Source: Thiobacillus sp. (lineage in GTDB: Bacteria; Pseudomonadota; Gammaproteobacteria; Burkholderiales; Thiobacillaceae). From it: DNA of 64,000 nucleotides. Below the pieces are notes generated by a model. It did no database searches. It was not told where the DNA came from and saw only the letters and a list, made by a program, of their open reading frames with translations. How positions within the stretch are numbered: position 1 is the stretch's first letter; each line of letters starts with the position of its first letter. The stretch lies in assembly GCF_018780105.1 (NCBI RefSeq), contig NZ_JADMKC010000004.1, positions 62,001 to 126,000 of the forward strand, in the 5' to 3' direction. This document shows, piece by piece, positions 6,159-62,547 of the stretch. The position numbers and the translations under genes were made by a program.

Positions 6159-6176
6159 CCGGGTCTGATCGGACGT

Positions 6177-6208
6177 AAAAAAAGCCGACGCATGCGTCGG
6201 CTTTTTTT
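6177..6208. terminator. Bidirectional Rho-independent terminator
   Basis: A 9-bp GC-rich self-complementary stem (GCCGACGCA/TGCGTCGGC) is flanked by seven A on the left and seven T on the right. It can therefore end the rightward sulfurylase/kinase transcript and the leftward PEP-CTERM transcript, whose stop codons lie at 6158 and 6226. Confidence 0.9.
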
Positions 6209-6225: not shown

Positions 6226-6975
6226 TCAGGCGGCTTTGCGGCGACGCATGGCTGCCAGACCAGCCATGCCGATGCCCAGCAGAGCCAGGGAAGCGGGTTC
6301 AGGCACGCCATTGGTGGGCGGCAGGCTGCCTTGATCCAGCAGTGCGTATTTAATTTCGCCTCCGGCGACCAACACCTCACCTGATCCGGTCCCCCAGAAT
6401 TGGACTTTCGTGAAGTCGCCCGAGTCATCAAAAGCGGCTACGAAAATCTCGTGCACGATGCTGCCGGCAGCATTCGGGAACTGGCCTTCTGTTTCAGTCG
6501 ATGCAGAGGCCACCAGGATTGGGGCGCCGTCGTCGAACGAGATGTACAGATCTGTAGTCGGGTTGAAGCAGCAGGTCGCCCAATCGCCAACTTCAAATCC
6601 GAATGAGTTCACAGGGTTGTTGAAGGTGAAGGTGATGCCGCTGGCAATGGTCCCATTCGACCCAGGAAAGTTGCCATCAGGATTGATGCTGATAACTTGG
6701 CCAGACATTGAGCCGTAGGTGGTCGGGAAAAGGCTGCCACCGTTGTTGCGCGTAATGGTGTAATCCGTGCGGACGATGCTGGTGCCACCAGACGGCAGCG
6801 CAGCCCAAACGTCTGAAACAACTGTACCGCCTGCGCCGGTCACGGTGGCGTCAAACGAAGCCGAGCCGGTGGGGATGCCATCAAAAACGGTCAGGATGGT
6901 TGCATTGGCGATGCCGCTGAACAGCACGGTGGCTGCGATGGAAGCGGGAATAAGGTGCTTGAGTTTGAGGGTCAT
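6226..6975 (-). CDS. PEP-CTERM sorting-domain protein (surface/exported)
   Basis: The 249-aa protein has a signal peptide (MTLKLKHLIPASIAATVLFSGIANA region) and ends with a classical PEP-CTERM tail: VPEPASLALLGIGMAGL followed by a short Arg-rich end. That tail is recognised by exosortase (XrtA/EpsH type) in the inner membrane and removed during export. The middle is a beta-rich, Gly/Thr/Ser-rich low-Lys region with one CC pair, of no assignable function. AGGAGAT lies just before the ATG. No exosortase gene is visible in this window. The gene is single, flanked by a terminator and by its own candidate sigma-54 promoter at 7085-7100. Confidence 0.88.
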   Translation of the reverse strand: MTLKLKHLIPASIAATVLFSGIANATILTVFDGIPTGSASFDATVTGAGGTVVSDVWAALPSGGTSIVRTDYTITRNNGGSLFPTTYGSMSGQVISINPDGNFPGSNGTIASGITFTFNNPVNSFGFEVGDWATCCFNPTTDLYISFDDGAPILVASASTETEGQFPNAAGSIVHEIFVAAFDDSGDFTKVQFWGTGSGEVLVAGGEIKYALLDQGSLPPTNGVPEPASLALLGIGMAGLAAMRRRKAA

Positions 6976-7084: not shown

Positions 7085-7100
7085 AGCACTAGTCGTGCCA
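7085..7100 (-). promoter_or_regulatory. Candidate sigma-54 promoter of the PEP-CTERM gene
   Basis: Read on the minus strand this is TGGCACGACTAGTGCT, one mismatch from the sigma-54 consensus TGGCAC-N5-TTGCW, with the invariant GG and GC correctly spaced. Transcription would start near 7073, leaving a leader of roughly 95-100 nt. The same TGGMAC-N5-KTGCTTTA pattern occurs twice upstream of the other PEP-CTERM gene (61269 and 61461). Confidence 0.7.
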
Positions 7101-7177
7101 AATGGACTTGTGTTTCAAAATATCAATTTTAAACAATGGGTTGCCTGTTGTTTTCCAAGCCGCGCCTATGCCGCGAT

Positions 7178-8629
7178 TCAGGCGGGCGTAAAGTTTTTCG
7201 ACACGCGGCTTTGCTGTTGACGAATGAATCCGCCGGCCAGCATGCCCGCTGCACTTGCAATCAGGCCGACGAACTGCGGCGGCAAGCTTGCTTCCGGTGC
7301 GATGAACTCCATCGCGATCCAGGCTATCAGACCCAGCGCAATCGACAGGCCGGCGCCGGCATTGTTGGCGCGTTTCCAGTAGAGCCCCGCCACCAGCGGT
7401 ACAAACGCGCAGGCGAGGGTGATCTTGTAGGCGTTGGCGACCATGGTGTGGATGCTGGTTTCGCTTTGCAGCGACCACAGCGAATAATCGACGACCAGCA
7501 GGGTGAACGCGACTACGACGCTGCGGGTGATCCACAGCAGTTTTTTCTGACTCATGCGATGGCGCGGCATGAGTTCCTTGATGATGTTTTCCGAAATGGT
7601 GACCGACGGCGCAAGCAGGGTGCCCGAGGCAGTGGACATGATGACCGAGAGCAGGGCACCGTAAAAAATGATCTGCGCATACAGCGGCAGGTGGGCCTTG
7701 ACGAAGGCGGGCAGCACTTGCTGGGCATCCTCGGCGAGCAGGGTCGCGGTCAGGGCCGGATCAACCAGGGTGGCGGCATAGGTCAGGTAGATCGGCACGG
7801 CGGCGAAGGCGAAATACAGCACGCCGCCGATGACTGTGCCCCACACGGCGACGCGCTCGTTTTTCGAGGCGTTGGCGCGCTGGAACACATCCTGCTGCGG
7901 GATCGAGCCCAGTCCCATGGTGAGCAGGCCGGCGACGAACGTGACAATGGCCGCCCACTCCAGCGGCGGCCAGAATTCGAACTTGCCGGCGGCGGCGGCG
8001 TGCTCGACCACCGGCGCGACGCCATTGACGGCGGGCATGTCGCCGACCAGCATCGCAATCCACAGCAGGCCGGCGACGATCACGGTCATCTGCACCAGGG
8101 TGGTCAGCGCTACCGACCACATGCCGCCGAACAAGGTGTAGAGCAGCACCACCGACGCGCCGATGTAGATACCCTGCTCCTGGGTAATGGCGCCGTCCGA
8201 CAGCACGTTGAACACCAGACCCAGCGCCACCACCTGCGCCGATACCCAGCCCAGATAGGACAGCGCAATGGCCAGTGAAATCACCATTTCGACTGGACGG
8301 TTGTAGCGTTCGCGAAAGTAATCACCCAGTGTAATCAGCTTCATGCGATACAGCGGGCGCGCAATAAACAGGCCGAACAGGATCAGCGCGAGCGAGGCGC
8401 CGAAAGGATCTGAAATCGTGGCGCCGAGGTTTTCGTCGAGGAAGGTGGCCGGGATGCCGAGCACGGTCTCGGCGCCGAACCAGGTGGCGAACACCATCGC
8501 CACCACCACGATCATCGGCAGCGAGCGTCCGGCCGTGATGTAGTCACTGGCGCTGTGCACCTTGGTGGCGGCATAAAAGCCGATGCCGAGTGAAATGACA
8601 AGATAGGCAATGACAAAACCGATCAGCAT
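7178..8629 (-). CDS. Sodium:solute symporter (SSS/PutP family)
   Basis: This 483-aa polytopic protein has about 13 hydrophobic segments and SSS-family features: N-terminal YLVISLGIGFYAATKV, a SDYITAGRSLP segment after TM1, and the FLDENLGATISDPFG and LYRMKLITLGDYFRERYN regions typical of the family. These permeases use a sodium gradient to import small solutes such as amino or organic acids. The substrate cannot be read from the sequence. The start lies 9 nt after the ubiB stop, so it is the fourth gene of the ubiE-ubiJ-ubiB transcription unit, an unusual companion for ubiquinone genes. Confidence 0.88.
   Translation of the reverse strand: MLIGFVIAYLVISLGIGFYAATKVHSASDYITAGRSLPMIVVVAMVFATWFGAETVLGIPATFLDENLGATISDPFGASLALILFGLFIARPLYRMKLITLGDYFRERYNRPVEMVISLAIALSYLGWVSAQVVALGLVFNVLSDGAITQEQGIYIGASVVLLYTLFGGMWSVALTTLVQMTVIVAGLLWIAMLVGDMPAVNGVAPVVEHAAAAGKFEFWPPLEWAAIVTFVAGLLTMGLGSIPQQDVFQRANASKNERVAVWGTVIGGVLYFAFAAVPIYLTYAATLVDPALTATLLAEDAQQVLPAFVKAHLPLYAQIIFYGALLSVIMSTASGTLLAPSVTISENIIKELMPRHRMSQKKLLWITRSVVVAFTLLVVDYSLWSLQSETSIHTMVANAYKITLACAFVPLVAGLYWKRANNAGAGLSIALGLIAWIAMEFIAPEASLPPQFVGLIASAAGMLAGGFIRQQQSRVSKNFTPA
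7187..7203. promoter_or_regulatory. Candidate enhancer (UAS) motif for the 7085 promoter
   Basis: CGTAAAGTTTTTCGACA differs at three of 17 positions from the motif copy at 61551-61567 and lies 86 bp upstream of the -24 element. It falls inside the last codons of the symporter gene, so its conservation is partly constrained by coding sequence and it is the weakest of the three copies. Confidence 0.45.
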
Positions 8630-55623: not shown

Positions 55624-58404
55624 ATGACCAAACACCCCGTTGCCCTGGCGATTGCACTTGCCCTGTCTGTCGCCGTCGCGCTTCCTGGCTGCGACAGCAC
55701 GGCCAACCTGACCGAGCAGGAACACATCCAGCGCGCCAAGGACTTCGAGGACAAGGGCAATCTCAAGGCCAGCATCGTCGAGCTGAAAAATGCGATCCAG
55801 AAAAACCCGGACAGCCCGCAGGCGCGTTTGCTGCTGGGGCAGGTTTATCTGAAAGCAGGCATGGGGGCCGAAGCGGAAAAGGAACTCAGCCAGGCCGAAA
55901 AGCTGGGGGTGAACCCGGAGTCGATCAAACCCCAGCTTGGCGAAGCCTTGTTACTGATGGGCGAATACAAGCGGCTGCTCGACACGATCCAGCCCGGCGA
56001 GCAAACCTCGAAAACCAATCTGGCGCGCATTCTGCAACTGCGCGCCGACGCAATGCTCAGACAGGGCGGCATGCTGAAGGAGGCCTGCAACCTGTTCCAG
56101 CAATCCCTCGATACCGCCACGGGCAATCCGCCGACTTACTGGGGCCTGGCGCAATGCGCGATTGCCGTGCGGGACATGCCCAAAGCCCGGAAATGGCTTG
56201 ATGATGCGCTCAAGATCAAGGAGCGCCAGGCGCAGACATGGGGTTATATCGGCGACTGGGAGCAGCTCAGCAAGAATCAGCCCGCGGCCCTGGTTGCCTA
56301 CGGCAAGGCGCTGGAAATCGAACCCAACAATCTCAAGGCGCTGCAGGACCGCGCCACGCTGAGCATTGCGATGGGGAAACTGGAACAGGCCCGGCTGGAC
56401 ATCGAGAAGACCCACAAGCTTGCACCGAAAGCGCTTGGTAGCATTTATCTGCAAGCCCTGTACGACTTCCAGCAGAAAAAATTCCCCGAAACGCGCGATG
56501 GCCTGCAGGAAGTGCTCAAGATTTCGCCCGATCACATGCCGAGCGTGCTGCTCGCCGGGACGACTGCCTACGCGATGGAGGCTTATCAGCAGTCGGAAAG
56601 CTATCTGCAGCGTTTTTTGGCGCGCTATCCTGCGCATGCGTTTGCGCGCAGGATCATGGCCGCCACCCAGATCAAACTGAATCAGCCCGACAAGGCGCTG
56701 GAAACCCTGGCGCCGCTGATCACGCTTGACTCGCAGGATGCGCAGGCCCTGGCGATGGCCAGTGATGCCTATCGCATCAAGGGAGAGAACATGAATGCGG
56801 CGGCCCTGCTCGAACGCGCCGCGCTGATCGACCCGACTAATGCCGCCATTCAAACCCAGCTCGGGATCACCCATCTGACGACGGGCGACAGCCTGCAGGC
56901 GATTACCAAGCTGGAATCGGCCGCAGCACTGGATGCCCATCAATACAAGGCAGAAAGCCTGCTGGTTCAGACTTACCTGGGCCGCCGCGAGTTCGACAAG
57001 GCGCTGAGCGCAATCGATGCGCTCGAGAAGAAGTTGCCGGACAGCGCGATCACGCACAATCTGCGCGGCAATGCCTATCTGGGGAAACGAGATCCAACCA
57101 ATGCCCGCAAGAGCTTCGAGCAAGCGGTCAAGGTTGATCCGCGCTTTTTCCCGGCGGTGGCCAGTCTGGCTCAACTCGATCTCGCAGACAAAAAGCCCGA
57201 TGCCGCCCGCAAGCGCTTCGAGCACGTGCTTGAGAGCGACAAGAACAACCTGCAGGCCATGATGGCGCTGGCCGCGTTGGCTGGCCTGGAAAAGCGGGAT
57301 CAGGACTATGTCGGCTGGCTGGAAAAGGCTCAAAAAGCCCACACTCAGGCCATTCCGCCGCGCACGGCACTGGTCGCCCATTACCTCGCCAAGCGCGCCT
57401 TTCCCGACGCGCTCAAGGTGGCGAGCGAGGCCGTCAATCTCAACCCGGAGAGCACCGCAGCGCTGGTCTTGCTGGGCAACACCCAGATGGCCGTGGGCGA
57501 GCGGGCCAAGGCCGTGCAGACGTTCTCCAAGCTGGCACAAAAATCGGAGCACGCGCCGGATGCCTTCCTGCAGCTTGCCATGGCCCAGATTGCCAACAAG
57601 CAATATAAGGAGGCCCGCATCAGCCTGCAGAAGTCGCTCAAGCTCAAGGCCGATTACCTGCCCAGCCAGGAGGCCTTGATTCGGCTGGAAATGACCGAGA
57701 ACAAGCCCGAGGCCGCCCTGCAGGTGGCCCGCAGCATGCAGGTGCAACAACCGAAGTCACCGCTGGGATTCGACCGCGAAGGCGATCTCCAGCTTGCGCT
57801 CAACCACGTGCCCGAGGCCGTTGCGGCGTATCGGCTGGCACTTGAAAAAGGCGCGGGCGGAGCCGGCCTCGTCAAGCTGTTCCGCGCCCAGGTCATCGTG
57901 CAGCCGAAGGTTGCCGAGCAGGGGCTGCAGGACTGGATACGAAAATACCCGAGAGATGCGGCGGTGCGTGCGTTTGCCGCCGAGTTTTACATGCGCAATG
58001 GGCGCAACCAGGAGGCCATCGCCGAGTACGAAGCGGTCAATCGGCTGGTGCCTAACAAGGTCCTTTTGCTGAACAACCTTGCCAATCTGTATGCGCGTGA
58101 AAAGGACCCGCGCGCGCTGGCAACGGCTGAGCAGGCGATCAAACTGGCACCCGACAACCCGGGCGTACAGGACACGCTGGGCTGGATTCTGGTGGGGCAG
58201 GGTCAGGCGTCGAAGGGGCTCGTCTGGTTGAACAAGGCGTTGGCCAAAGCGCCGAAAAATCCGGCAGTACGCTACCACCATGCGGCCGCCCTGGCGCTCA
58301 CCGGCAACCCGGCGCAGGCGCGCAAGGAAATCCAGGCCTTGCTGGCAGACAAACCGCAGTTTTCCGAACTGGCCGATGCACAAGCCCTGCTCAAGCGACT
58401 TTAA
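55624..58404 (+). CDS. prsT: PEP-CTERM/XrtA-system TPR lipoprotein PrsT
   Basis: The 926-aa protein has a lipoprotein signal with LPGC lipobox (near residue 23), then about twenty-plus TPR units through to the C-terminus (for example GNLKASIVELKNAIQKNPDSPQARLLLGQVYL, LLERAALIDPTNAAIQTQLGITHLTTGDSLQAI). Length, lipobox and array match PrsT, which goes with exosortase XrtA and exopolysaccharide synthesis, probably as an outer-membrane scaffold. It lies 55 bp after polA and heads a unit with the hydrolase and ThiF genes (gaps 62 and 33 bp). No exosortase gene is in view. Confidence 0.86.
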   Translation: MTKHPVALAIALALSVAVALPGCDSTANLTEQEHIQRAKDFEDKGNLKASIVELKNAIQKNPDSPQARLLLGQVYLKAGMGAEAEKELSQAEKLGVNPESIKPQLGEALLLMGEYKRLLDTIQPGEQTSKTNLARILQLRADAMLRQGGMLKEACNLFQQSLDTATGNPPTYWGLAQCAIAVRDMPKARKWLDDALKIKERQAQTWGYIGDWEQLSKNQPAALVAYGKALEIEPNNLKALQDRATLSIAMGKLEQARLDIEKTHKLAPKALGSIYLQALYDFQQKKFPETRDGLQEVLKISPDHMPSVLLAGTTAYAMEAYQQSESYLQRFLARYPAHAFARRIMAATQIKLNQPDKALETLAPLITLDSQDAQALAMASDAYRIKGENMNAAALLERAALIDPTNAAIQTQLGITHLTTGDSLQAITKLESAAALDAHQYKAESLLVQTYLGRREFDKALSAIDALEKKLPDSAITHNLRGNAYLGKRDPTNARKSFEQAVKVDPRFFPAVASLAQLDLADKKPDAARKRFEHVLESDKNNLQAMMALAALAGLEKRDQDYVGWLEKAQKAHTQAIPPRTALVAHYLAKRAFPDALKVASEAVNLNPESTAALVLLGNTQMAVGERAKAVQTFSKLAQKSEHAPDAFLQLAMAQIANKQYKEARISLQKSLKLKADYLPSQEALIRLEMTENKPEAALQVARSMQVQQPKSPLGFDREGDLQLALNHVPEAVAAYRLALEKGAGGAGLVKLFRAQVIVQPKVAEQGLQDWIRKYPRDAAVRAFAAEFYMRNGRNQEAIAEYEAVNRLVPNKVLLLNNLANLYAREKDPRALATAEQAIKLAPDNPGVQDTLGWILVGQGQASKGLVWLNKALAKAPKNPAVRYHHAAALALTGNPAQARKEIQALLADKPQFSELADAQALLKRL

Positions 58405-60350: not shown

Positions 60351-61208
60351 TTAAGCCTTCTTGTTGCGGCGAGCCATGCCACCCATCAGGATCAGCGAGC
60401 CGCCCAGCAGAGCCAGGGTGCCCGGTTCCGGCACCGAGAAGGTTGCGCTGCCATCGTGGTTCGAAGTCAGCTTGAAGGTGTCGGTAACAGGATCGTATGT
60501 GAAATCGCTCACGAAGATGTTGGTGTCGAAGCTGGCGAAGAACTGGATGTCGGTACCGGTACCGCAGTTCGTCCAGATGTCGAAGAAGCTGTCCGAACCC
60601 AGGCAGCTTTCGGTGCCCGAGTGGATCAGGTCGTTATAACCTGCATCAACGCTGGTGAAATCGGCTTTGCCCAGCAGGATGGTGCTGACGCCGGTTGCGC
60701 CGCCGCCGGTGATGGCAACGTCCATGAAGTTGTTAAACGTCACACCGTCAAAGGTCACGAACAGTTCCATCAGGCCGGGGCCGTAGGAGAAGGTCGGAAC
60801 ACCACCGCCCGTCACGCCGTTGACAATACCACCCAAGCCGCTCACCGAGAAGCTGATCAGGTAGTTGGAGGCACCATAACCATTGTTGCTGTTGGTGCCA
60901 AAAGCCTCGTTGGGGTTGAAGCCGTTGACTTGGTTGTTGCCCAAGCCGGCTATATTAAAGCCGCCGACCGCCAAGCCGCCGTCCGTGCTCAGCAGATCGC
61001 CAGCACCGATGGCGTTGTCGTTAACCGTATCGGAAATGGTGGTGGTGGATTGATAGGTGAAGGTGAATTCATCTTTCATCGAGGTACAGGTCGGGCACAC
61101 CTGGCCGCCTGCGGGGCCGTAGCTGGTGCCGATGTCCAGGTAGAACGGGTCGGCGGATGCGCTGCCAGCTGCCAGCAGGATTGACATCGTCAAAAGTGAT
61201 TTTTTCAT
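60351..61208 (-). CDS. PEP-CTERM sorting-domain protein
   Basis: The 285-aa protein has a signal peptide (MKKSLLTMSILLAAGSASA, about 1-19) and ends FSVPEPGTLALLGGSLILMG plus RRNKKA, a PEP-CTERM tail. The mature part is rich in Gly, Asn, Thr and Ser, with a CPTC pair near residue 38 and two further Cys (ESCLGS, TNCGTG), which could form disulfides. It would be exported and processed by an exosortase, then placed in the matrix or outer surface. Two candidate sigma-54 promoter/UAS modules precede it. It lies between the ThiF and methyltransferase genes. Confidence 0.9.
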   Translation of the reverse strand: MKKSLLTMSILLAAGSASADPFYLDIGTSYGPAGGQVCPTCTSMKDEFTFTYQSTTTISDTVNDNAIGAGDLLSTDGGLAVGGFNIAGLGNNQVNGFNPNEAFGTNSNNGYGASNYLISFSVSGLGGIVNGVTGGGVPTFSYGPGLMELFVTFDGVTFNNFMDVAITGGGATGVSTILLGKADFTSVDAGYNDLIHSGTESCLGSDSFFDIWTNCGTGTDIQFFASFDTNIFVSDFTYDPVTDTFKLTSNHDGSATFSVPEPGTLALLGGSLILMGGMARRNKKA

Positions 61209-61268
61209 TTCAAGACTCCTCTAAATAAAACCGGATTAAGGATATAAACGTTGTACCCACCAACTAAA

Positions 61269-61283
61269 GCAACATCCGTTCCA
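61269..61283 (-). promoter_or_regulatory. Proximal candidate sigma-54 promoter of the PEP-CTERM gene
   Basis: Minus-strand TGGAACGGATGTTGCT (reading one base past the stated interval) matches TGGCAC-N5-TTGCW with one mismatch. Predicted start near 61257, giving a leader of about 50 nt. The UAS motif begins 74 bp upstream of the -24 element. Confidence 0.65.
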
Positions 61284-61357
61284 CTACTTTTAACACTATG
61301 TAATGAAAAGGATTTTCGAATTTCGCGCTGCAAATGGCTTCGGTAATGAGTGAAAAC

Positions 61358-61374
61358 TGTAAAATTTACCGACA
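61358..61374. promoter_or_regulatory. Candidate UAS (copy near proximal promoter)
   Basis: TGTAAAATTTACCGACA; differs at one of 17 positions from the copy at 61551. The ends TGT and ACA are complementary, as in sites bound by NtrC-type dimers. Confidence 0.6.
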
Positions 61375-61460
61375 CTGCCCAACTCGAAGTTCTTAGCGTG
61401 TTGATGGAGTGGCTTAACTTGGGTGCTCTCAATCAAACCAACGCTATTGCCGAGCAATAA

Positions 61461-61476
61461 AGCACGTGGCGTGCCA
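61461..61476 (-). promoter_or_regulatory. Distal candidate sigma-54 promoter of the PEP-CTERM gene
   Basis: Minus-strand TGGCACGCCACGTGCT has the exact -24 TGGCAC and the -12 GC, one mismatch overall. Followed by TTAT, as in the promoter at 7085. Its start would give a leader near 240 nt, so it may be secondary or vestigial. Confidence 0.6.
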
Positions 61477-61550
61477 GCGTGTTGAGTGCATTGAAAATAA
61501 AGGTGAATTCATGTTTGAATAGTGGGATTGGCGAGATGTTTGAGATTTTT

Positions 61551-61567
61551 TGTAAAATTTTCCGACA
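61551..61567. promoter_or_regulatory. Candidate UAS (copy near distal promoter)
   Basis: TGTAAAATTTTCCGACA, with 74 bp between it and the distal -24 box, the same distance as in the proximal module. Confidence 0.6.
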
Positions 61568-61665
61568 GGCTGCTTGTGCTAAAAAACAGGTGGTAGCGTT
61601 CTGTCAAGATTGGTTTGGAATGGGCGTTAAGCCTTTACGATGCACTACACATTATTGAGGTCAGC

Positions 61666-62547
61666 ATGAATCTCCCCCGCATCTCATTACTGCCCACCTT
61701 CCTGCGGGAATTGTTGAGCGACCAGACTTTGCCGCGCGAGCCCGAGCCGGATGCCATCATGGAAGATGTTGATCAGGTGGCGGCATTTTCAGAAACAGGG
61801 CGTGCTGAAAGCACCTTGGCAGCATCCTATTTGTTTCACACCGCGCGAGCTTCGCAGGCCCTCCAGGGGTGTAAGAGGGTGGTCGATCTTGGGTGCGGCC
61901 CGGCAACCCAGTTGATTCAAATTGCAACGATCAATCCCGAGATCGAGTTTGTTGGCGTTGACATGTCGCAGGAGATGCTCAGGCATGCCCGCACCCACGC
62001 GGATGAAGCCGGTGTGCGCAATGTCAGCTTCATGACCGGTGACATTACGAAGCTGGATGCGTTTGAGCCGCAATCGGTGGATGGGGTCATCAGCACGGTT
62101 TCCTTGCATCACTTGCCGACGGCGGGGCATCTCGAAGGGTGTTTCCGCGAAATCCAGCGCATATTGAAGCCGGGGGGTGCGCTGTATCTGGCTGATTTCG
62201 GGCGCCTCAAGTCATTGAAATCAGTGATTTTCTTCGCTTATATGAATCGCGATCGCGACCCTCATCAACTGCTGCTTGATTACGAGCGCTCGTTGCGGGC
62301 CGCGTTTCTGCTTTCGGATTTCCAGAGGCTGGCGAAAGGGTTTCTGGGCGGGGCGGTCAATGTGTTCAGCACGTTCAAGGTGCCGTTGCTGATTGTGCTC
62401 AAAACCCCAGACAAGGATTTGCCCGCCGAGAAGATCGCGATCCTGAACCGTATGCGCGATGGCCTGAATCCCCGTTTCAAGTACGACCTGGACGACATGC
62501 GGACGTTTTTCAAGCTTGGCGGGCTCAAGAACGACGTTTTCCATTAG
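61666..62547 (+). CDS. SAM-dependent methyltransferase
   Basis: The ATG at 61666 (MNLPRISLLPTFLRELL, with GAGG 6 nt upstream) gives 293 aa. The class-I SAM motif is RVVDLGCGPATQLIQIA (about 72-88), with the acidic SAM-ribose residue in EFVGVDMSQEM and the post-motif segment RILKPGGALYLADFG. The N-terminal 70 residues and C-terminal extension (about 190-293) are family-specific. The target could be a lipid, quinone or peptide. It sits opposite the PEP-CTERM gene and converges on the FeeM-like gene. The longer ORF from 61615 lacks support. Confidence 0.85.
   Translation: MNLPRISLLPTFLRELLSDQTLPREPEPDAIMEDVDQVAAFSETGRAESTLAASYLFHTARASQALQGCKRVVDLGCGPATQLIQIATINPEIEFVGVDMSQEMLRHARTHADEAGVRNVSFMTGDITKLDAFEPQSVDGVISTVSLHHLPTAGHLEGCFREIQRILKPGGALYLADFGRLKSLKSVIFFAYMNRDRDPHQLLLDYERSLRAAFLLSDFQRLAKGFLGGAVNVFSTFKVPLLIVLKTPDKDLPAEKIAILNRMRDGLNPRFKYDLDDMRTFFKLGGLKNDVFH

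Follow-up and report, generated by a model that had tools for sequence, protein, structure and literature searches.

Predicted PrsR-type sigma-54 promoter modules before PEP-CTERM genes of a Thiobacillus genome, and the phasing of their enhancer–promoter gaps

The window analysed here, a 64 kb (64 000-nucleotide) stretch of a Thiobacillus sp. genome, holds three modules in which a 17-nt putative activator site lies upstream of a sigma-54 element: two in tandem before one PEP-CTERM gene and one before a second. They add new members to a class already described, the PEP-CTERM regulatory site of Haft 2006 (PMC1569441). That work found the pair of motif 1 (17 nt, with TTTACA at its 3' end) and motif 2 (the sigma-54 box) upstream of 99 of 167 proteobacterial PEP-CTERM genes and proposed PrsR as the activator, so the core idea of a 17-mer plus a sigma-54 box before PEP-CTERM genes has been known since 2006. 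Each of our modules very probably belongs to the XrtA/PEP-CTERM regulon as a sigma-54 promoter that depends on an enhancer and is controlled by PrsR; we are less sure of the roles of the distal promoter (P2), the distal activator site (UAS B) and IHF than of this class assignment. Across many genomes, the gap between the two elements takes lengths that fall on a lattice with a step of 11.2 bp.

Three modules in the window

All three sigma-54 elements lie on the minus strand and have the form GG-N10-GC. At 61 kb, the proximal predicted promoter P1 (TGGAACGGATGTTGCT, 61268-61283) and the distal P2 (TGGCACGCCACGTGCT, 61461-61476), both conserved in two relatives (G073 and G056), have predicted starts at about 61257 and 61450, giving leaders of about 50 and 240 nt. 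The third, P3 (TGGCACGACTAGTGCT, 7085-7100), precedes the second gene. The matching 17-mers, also on the minus strand, are the proximal UAS A (TGTCGGTAAATTTTACA, 61358-61374) and distal UAS B (TGTCGGAAAATTTTACA, 61551-61567), which are predicted PrsR-type activator sites (Haft motif 1), and UAS C (TGTCGAAAAACTTTACG, 7187-7203). The gap from 17-mer to −24 is 74 bp in modules A and B and 86 bp in module C, and modules A and B are offset by 193 bp; the coordinates, spacings and offset given in the initial annotation are thereby confirmed. On the gene strand the 17-mer reads TGTCGG-N5-TTTACA and is asymmetric, with the TTTACA half towards the promoter; this end is exact in two of the three copies and TTTACG in the other. 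A first-order Markov null built on the window gives expectations per 64 kb of 0.0 for 17-mers scoring at least 22 and 0.3 for sigma-54 sites scoring at least 16, but the weight matrix was seeded with regulon sites including the window's own, so that these scores are not independent, and the sigma-54 weights are approximate literature values.

The gene behind modules A and B (60351..61208, minus strand) encodes a PEP-CTERM protein of 285 aa, and that behind module C (6226..6975, minus strand) one of 249 aa. Both score above the cut-off of TIGR02595 and are its sole matches here, which bears out the earlier statement that they are the window's only PEP-CTERM genes. Over its full length, the 285-aa protein distantly resembles PepA, a flocculation protein, at 47 bits, which falls short of the cut-off of 80. 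Motif 2 lies about 60, 110 and 250 nt from the start codon in modules A, C and B, respectively. The interval 61180-61700 yielded no sigma-70 promoter, and its sole terminator-like match is the P2 box itself. Two other candidates were put down to chance: a weak UAS/sigma-54 pair at 1830/1974, which lies within an ORF and has an off-lattice gap of 127, and an isolated 17-mer-like site at 6174-6190.

Extent of the regulon

Genome-wide tests used pattern searches, family searches and fetched stretches. With up to three mismatches allowed, the 17-mer has 22 matches in the genome against 6 for a reversed control, and 12 of the 22 lie directly upstream of PEP-CTERM genes, including all five with at most one mismatch. 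This search, with its control, is the independent test of the 17-mer, and it speaks against the motif occurring at random in the genome, an outcome that the initial annotation had named as one that would refute its proposal. The module is present at approximately 13 of 35 PEP-CTERM-like genes, and the predicted PrsR regulon therefore covers a subset of them. In 100 genomes of the family, the correct-orientation search returned hundreds of modules and the reversed-pattern control one. With the 17-mer in the opposite orientation, the 100 genomes gave 23 matches, none of promoter quality and several apparently in coding sequence; a reverse orientation was rejected, as it yielded no credible modules. 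Among proteins downstream of modules in other genomes, 32 of 50 matched TIGR02595.

The genes for PrsT, PrsR, PrsK and EpsB2 lie side by side roughly 12 kb to the left of the window (PrsK 920, PrsR approximately 752 and PrsT 958 bits). EpsH/exosortase, a further part of the system of Haft 2006, did not turn up among the few proteins scanned. The genome encodes a single PrsR above the cut-off (approx. 751 bits) among about a dozen NtrC-family proteins, together with one RpoN and an IHF-alpha, and a second PrsT (XrtA/PEP-CTERM TPR protein, 801 bits; 55624..58404, plus strand) lies near the 61-kb target gene. The assignment of PrsR to the motif is proposed on the basis of co-occurrence. That a single activator recognises the 17-mer at PEP-CTERM genes, as predicted earlier, finds support in Haft 2006, in the single PrsR, in the concentration of the 17-mer and in the conservation footprints on the four tandem elements described below.

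Several further loci of the same genome were noted. About a dozen PEP-CTERM genes clustered on one contig (C11:54000-93000, L061-L063) have no 17-mer/sigma-54 module, and this cluster is probably under other control. Two 17-mers 145 bp (12.9 turns) apart (C24:346187-346203 and 346332-346348, L015) precede a PEP-CTERM gene at which a single sigma-54 box can be recognised, a repeated-enhancer form. At C9:9260-9367 (L067), the gene behind a module codes for a twin-arginine-like secreted protein; PqqD-like and HprK-related-kinase-A-like genes come next, and HPr-rel-A system models were confirmed in this genome. Modules before similar HPr-rel-A-type sequences, judged by eye, occur at L075, L076, L084 and L104, with gaps, L067 included, of 73-76. 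Judging by the sites before it, the HPr-rel-A operon is a likely PrsR target without PEP-CTERM. Finally, a module with a gap of 64 (C59:4563-4658, L068) precedes an ORF for a small membrane protein of 78 aa that matches no NCBIfam model, and a similar module is found in genome G087.

Helical phasing of the gap and IHF-like sites

In 133 non-redundant modules from several proteobacterial lineages, gaps fall into classes near 52, 63, 74, 85, 97 and 107 bp, of which 63 is the commonest. Those of the family itself occupy 50-54, 59-65, 72-77, 82-88, 94-101 and 106-109, with a single 103 between classes and a few scattered outside. The fitted lattice is 51.6 + 11.23n bp (step SE 0.10, residual sd 1.3), and 124 of the 133 modules lie within 2.5 bp of it, where the expected fraction is 0.44 (Rayleigh ln p approx. 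−80); similar spacers had been removed from this set by an 8-mer filter, which does not fully remove modules related by descent. All 16 modules of the genome itself are on the lattice, as are 48 of 62 modules outside the family (phylum sample, p = 2e-7), a set that includes some chance matches in coding sequence. Some genomes of the phylum sample (L109, L110, L113 and L117) show an additional class of gaps at 42-44 bp, shorter than any class of the family; directly behind the module in L110 and L113 lies a short ORF, of 75 and 91 aa respectively, that lacks PEP-CTERM.

The 11.2-bp step agrees with the helical repeat of loops in living bacteria (11.0-11.6, from lac loops) rather than with 10.5. 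Spacer phasing and IHF go unmentioned in Haft 2006 (PMC1569441). The phasing principle is not new, because natural sigma-54 loop lengths also cluster approximately 11 bp apart in 61 Vibrio qrr enhancers (PMC4740811), although the PrsR set is larger. A NifA-type comparator (TGT-N10-ACA before TGGCACG-N4-TTGCW, n = 41) gave a non-significant R of 0.30 (null 95% 0.44), and this mixed set is neither support nor contrast for the phase rule.

An IHF site between enhancer and promoter is a feature of IHF-assisted sigma-54 promoters of the NifA and NtrC type. Candidate IHF-like sites lie between UAS and promoter in many of the modules described here. Scored with the E. coli consensus, a site lies 18-20 bp before −24 in 48 of 139 modules (3.0 in shuffled spacers) and 29-31 bp before it in 20 of 139 (2.8 shuffled). 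At either position (approx. 19 or 30 bp, one turn apart), the count is 67 of 139 against 6 for shuffled spacers, and about half of all modules lack a recognisable site at these two main positions. In the window, module C carries an IHF-like site (CAACCCATTGTTT, 7131-7143, minus strand) with one mismatch, 30 bp before −24. The sites of modules A (61291..61303, minus strand) and B (61484..61496, minus strand) both lie 7 bp before −24 and have three mismatches, where the orthologues have 1 and 2 (A) or 0 and 1 (B); in the other orientation, their best register is that of these 0-2 mismatch sites. Given how poorly these two sites match, the DNA of modules A and B may bend intrinsically or with the help of HU. 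The site matches across the class suggest that IHF may take part in PrsR modules; no paper in the literature searched linked IHF to PEP-CTERM.

The 61-kb tandem, a proposed mechanism and known systems

Two relatives (G073 and G056) carry orthologues of the 61-kb target gene (78 and 75% identity), and both modules are found in both, with gaps of 74-75 in all six modules. Across the three orthologous upstream regions, pairwise identity is 79-84% for the four tandem elements and 30-50% for spacers and inter-module DNA, and 13 of 17 columns are invariant in UAS A and likewise in UAS B. The suggestion that the two modules may be a duplication does not hold for a recent event: the 74-bp spacers of A and B share 24 of 74 bases, an identity at chance level (permutation p = 0.19). 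Because these spacers are unrelated and the arrangement is conserved in two relatives, the tandem is old. Module offsets are 193, 191 and 181 bp (17.2, 17.0 and 16.1 turns), and the offset appears, in three sequences only, to change by whole turns. UAS B is also nearly in whole-turn register with P1 (lattice n = 19.2, 19.1 and 18.1).

In the mechanism we propose, PrsK would phosphorylate PrsR, which would bind the asymmetric 17-mer, whose TTTACA half always faces the promoter. The intervening DNA would be bent, in many modules by IHF, allowing PrsR to contact the sigma-54 holoenzyme across the bend and open the promoter. The gap would be tolerated only in one-turn steps (52, 63, 74, 86 and 97 bp) because such short loops are twist-stiff. 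As there are two complete 74-bp modules offset by approximately whole turns, transcription could start at P1 or P2, and UAS B, in phase with P1, could be a second enhancer of P1.

The tandem could be read differently. The distal module may be a remote second enhancer only, in which case UAS B would act on P1, with the P2 box little used or used for another transcript. The near whole-turn phase of UAS B with P1 would fit, and repeated motif 1 with a single promoter has precedents, in Haft's set and at the C24 locus; however, the P2 box is about as strong as P1 and equally conserved, and we regard this as unlikely, though a serious contender. Less likely again is that one module works while the other is a decaying copy. 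P1 does lie about as far from the start codon as is usual (mean 71 nt in Haft's set) and P2 beyond Haft's reported maximum, but in the two relatives conservation is equal for the two UAS and the two sigma-54 boxes and does not extend to the surrounding DNA, and the gap stays at 74-75 in all six modules.

The class as a whole raises two more alternatives, both of which we consider very improbable. Common descent from a few ancestral promoters, rather than helical phasing, might account for the gap classes, given that some modules are orthologous and class 63 dominates. Yet the gap classes are still there in the 133 modules left once similar spacers are taken out, they reappear in other proteobacterial families and classes, and the inter-module distance in the orthologous tandem has shifted by about one turn (193/191 to 181). 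An NtrC-family activator other than PrsR might read the 17-mer, and the genome has about a dozen to choose from, but only one protein reaches the PrsR cut-off, and the motif, PrsR, PrsK and PrsT have one phylogenetic profile (Haft 2006, PMC1569441); if anything, this has the slimmer chance of the two.

The preferred reading is PrsR acting at phased distances. Its most extended form, in which an 11.2-bp lattice and phased IHF sites underlie the whole PrsR promoter class, the tandem modules are locked at whole turns and one enhancer serves both promoters, could in our judgement equally well prove right or wrong. If the lattice reading is true, it provides a natural read-out of the in vivo helical repeat. 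PrsR promoters form a natural set of uncommon size and cleanness in which to measure the helical-phase dependence of sigma-54 enhancers. The three-part rule (oriented 17-mer, phased gap and IHF site) allows regulon prediction, while the conserved tandem lets enhancer sharing be tested directly, and the sites before the HPr-rel-A operon do the same for targets other than PEP-CTERM genes.

With the site of Haft 2006 (PMC1569441), the window modules share the 17-nt motif 1, the GG/GC sigma-54 box and spacers within the reported range (32-92 nt, mean 62.8), as well as downstream PEP-CTERM genes and genomic PrsK, PrsR and PrsT. Motif 2 was placed there approximately 71 nt (23-221) from the start codon; modules A and C are inside this range whereas B (approx. 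250) is outside, and the two complete modules in tandem differ from Haft's description, which notes repeated motif 1 only. The link between sigma-54 and PEP-CTERM genes made in the initial annotation has experimental backing elsewhere, in the RpoN-dependent PEP-CTERM gene pepA of Aquincola tertiaricarbonis (PMC9850573), which has a single promoter with a mapped −24/−12 start, TGGCAC/CTGCTT boxes, a predicted upstream enhancer and prsT as a neighbour. A prsT gene also lies near the 61-kb target gene, whose product is distantly PepA-like (47 bits, cut-off 80), but the single promoter in Aquincola was mapped by experiment. The LuxO-sigma-54 qrr promoters of Vibrio (PMC4740811) share the clustering approximately 11 bp apart, but use another activator and control other genes, whereas the PrsR set is the larger one, comes from several proteobacterial lineages and carries IHF-like sites in phased positions.
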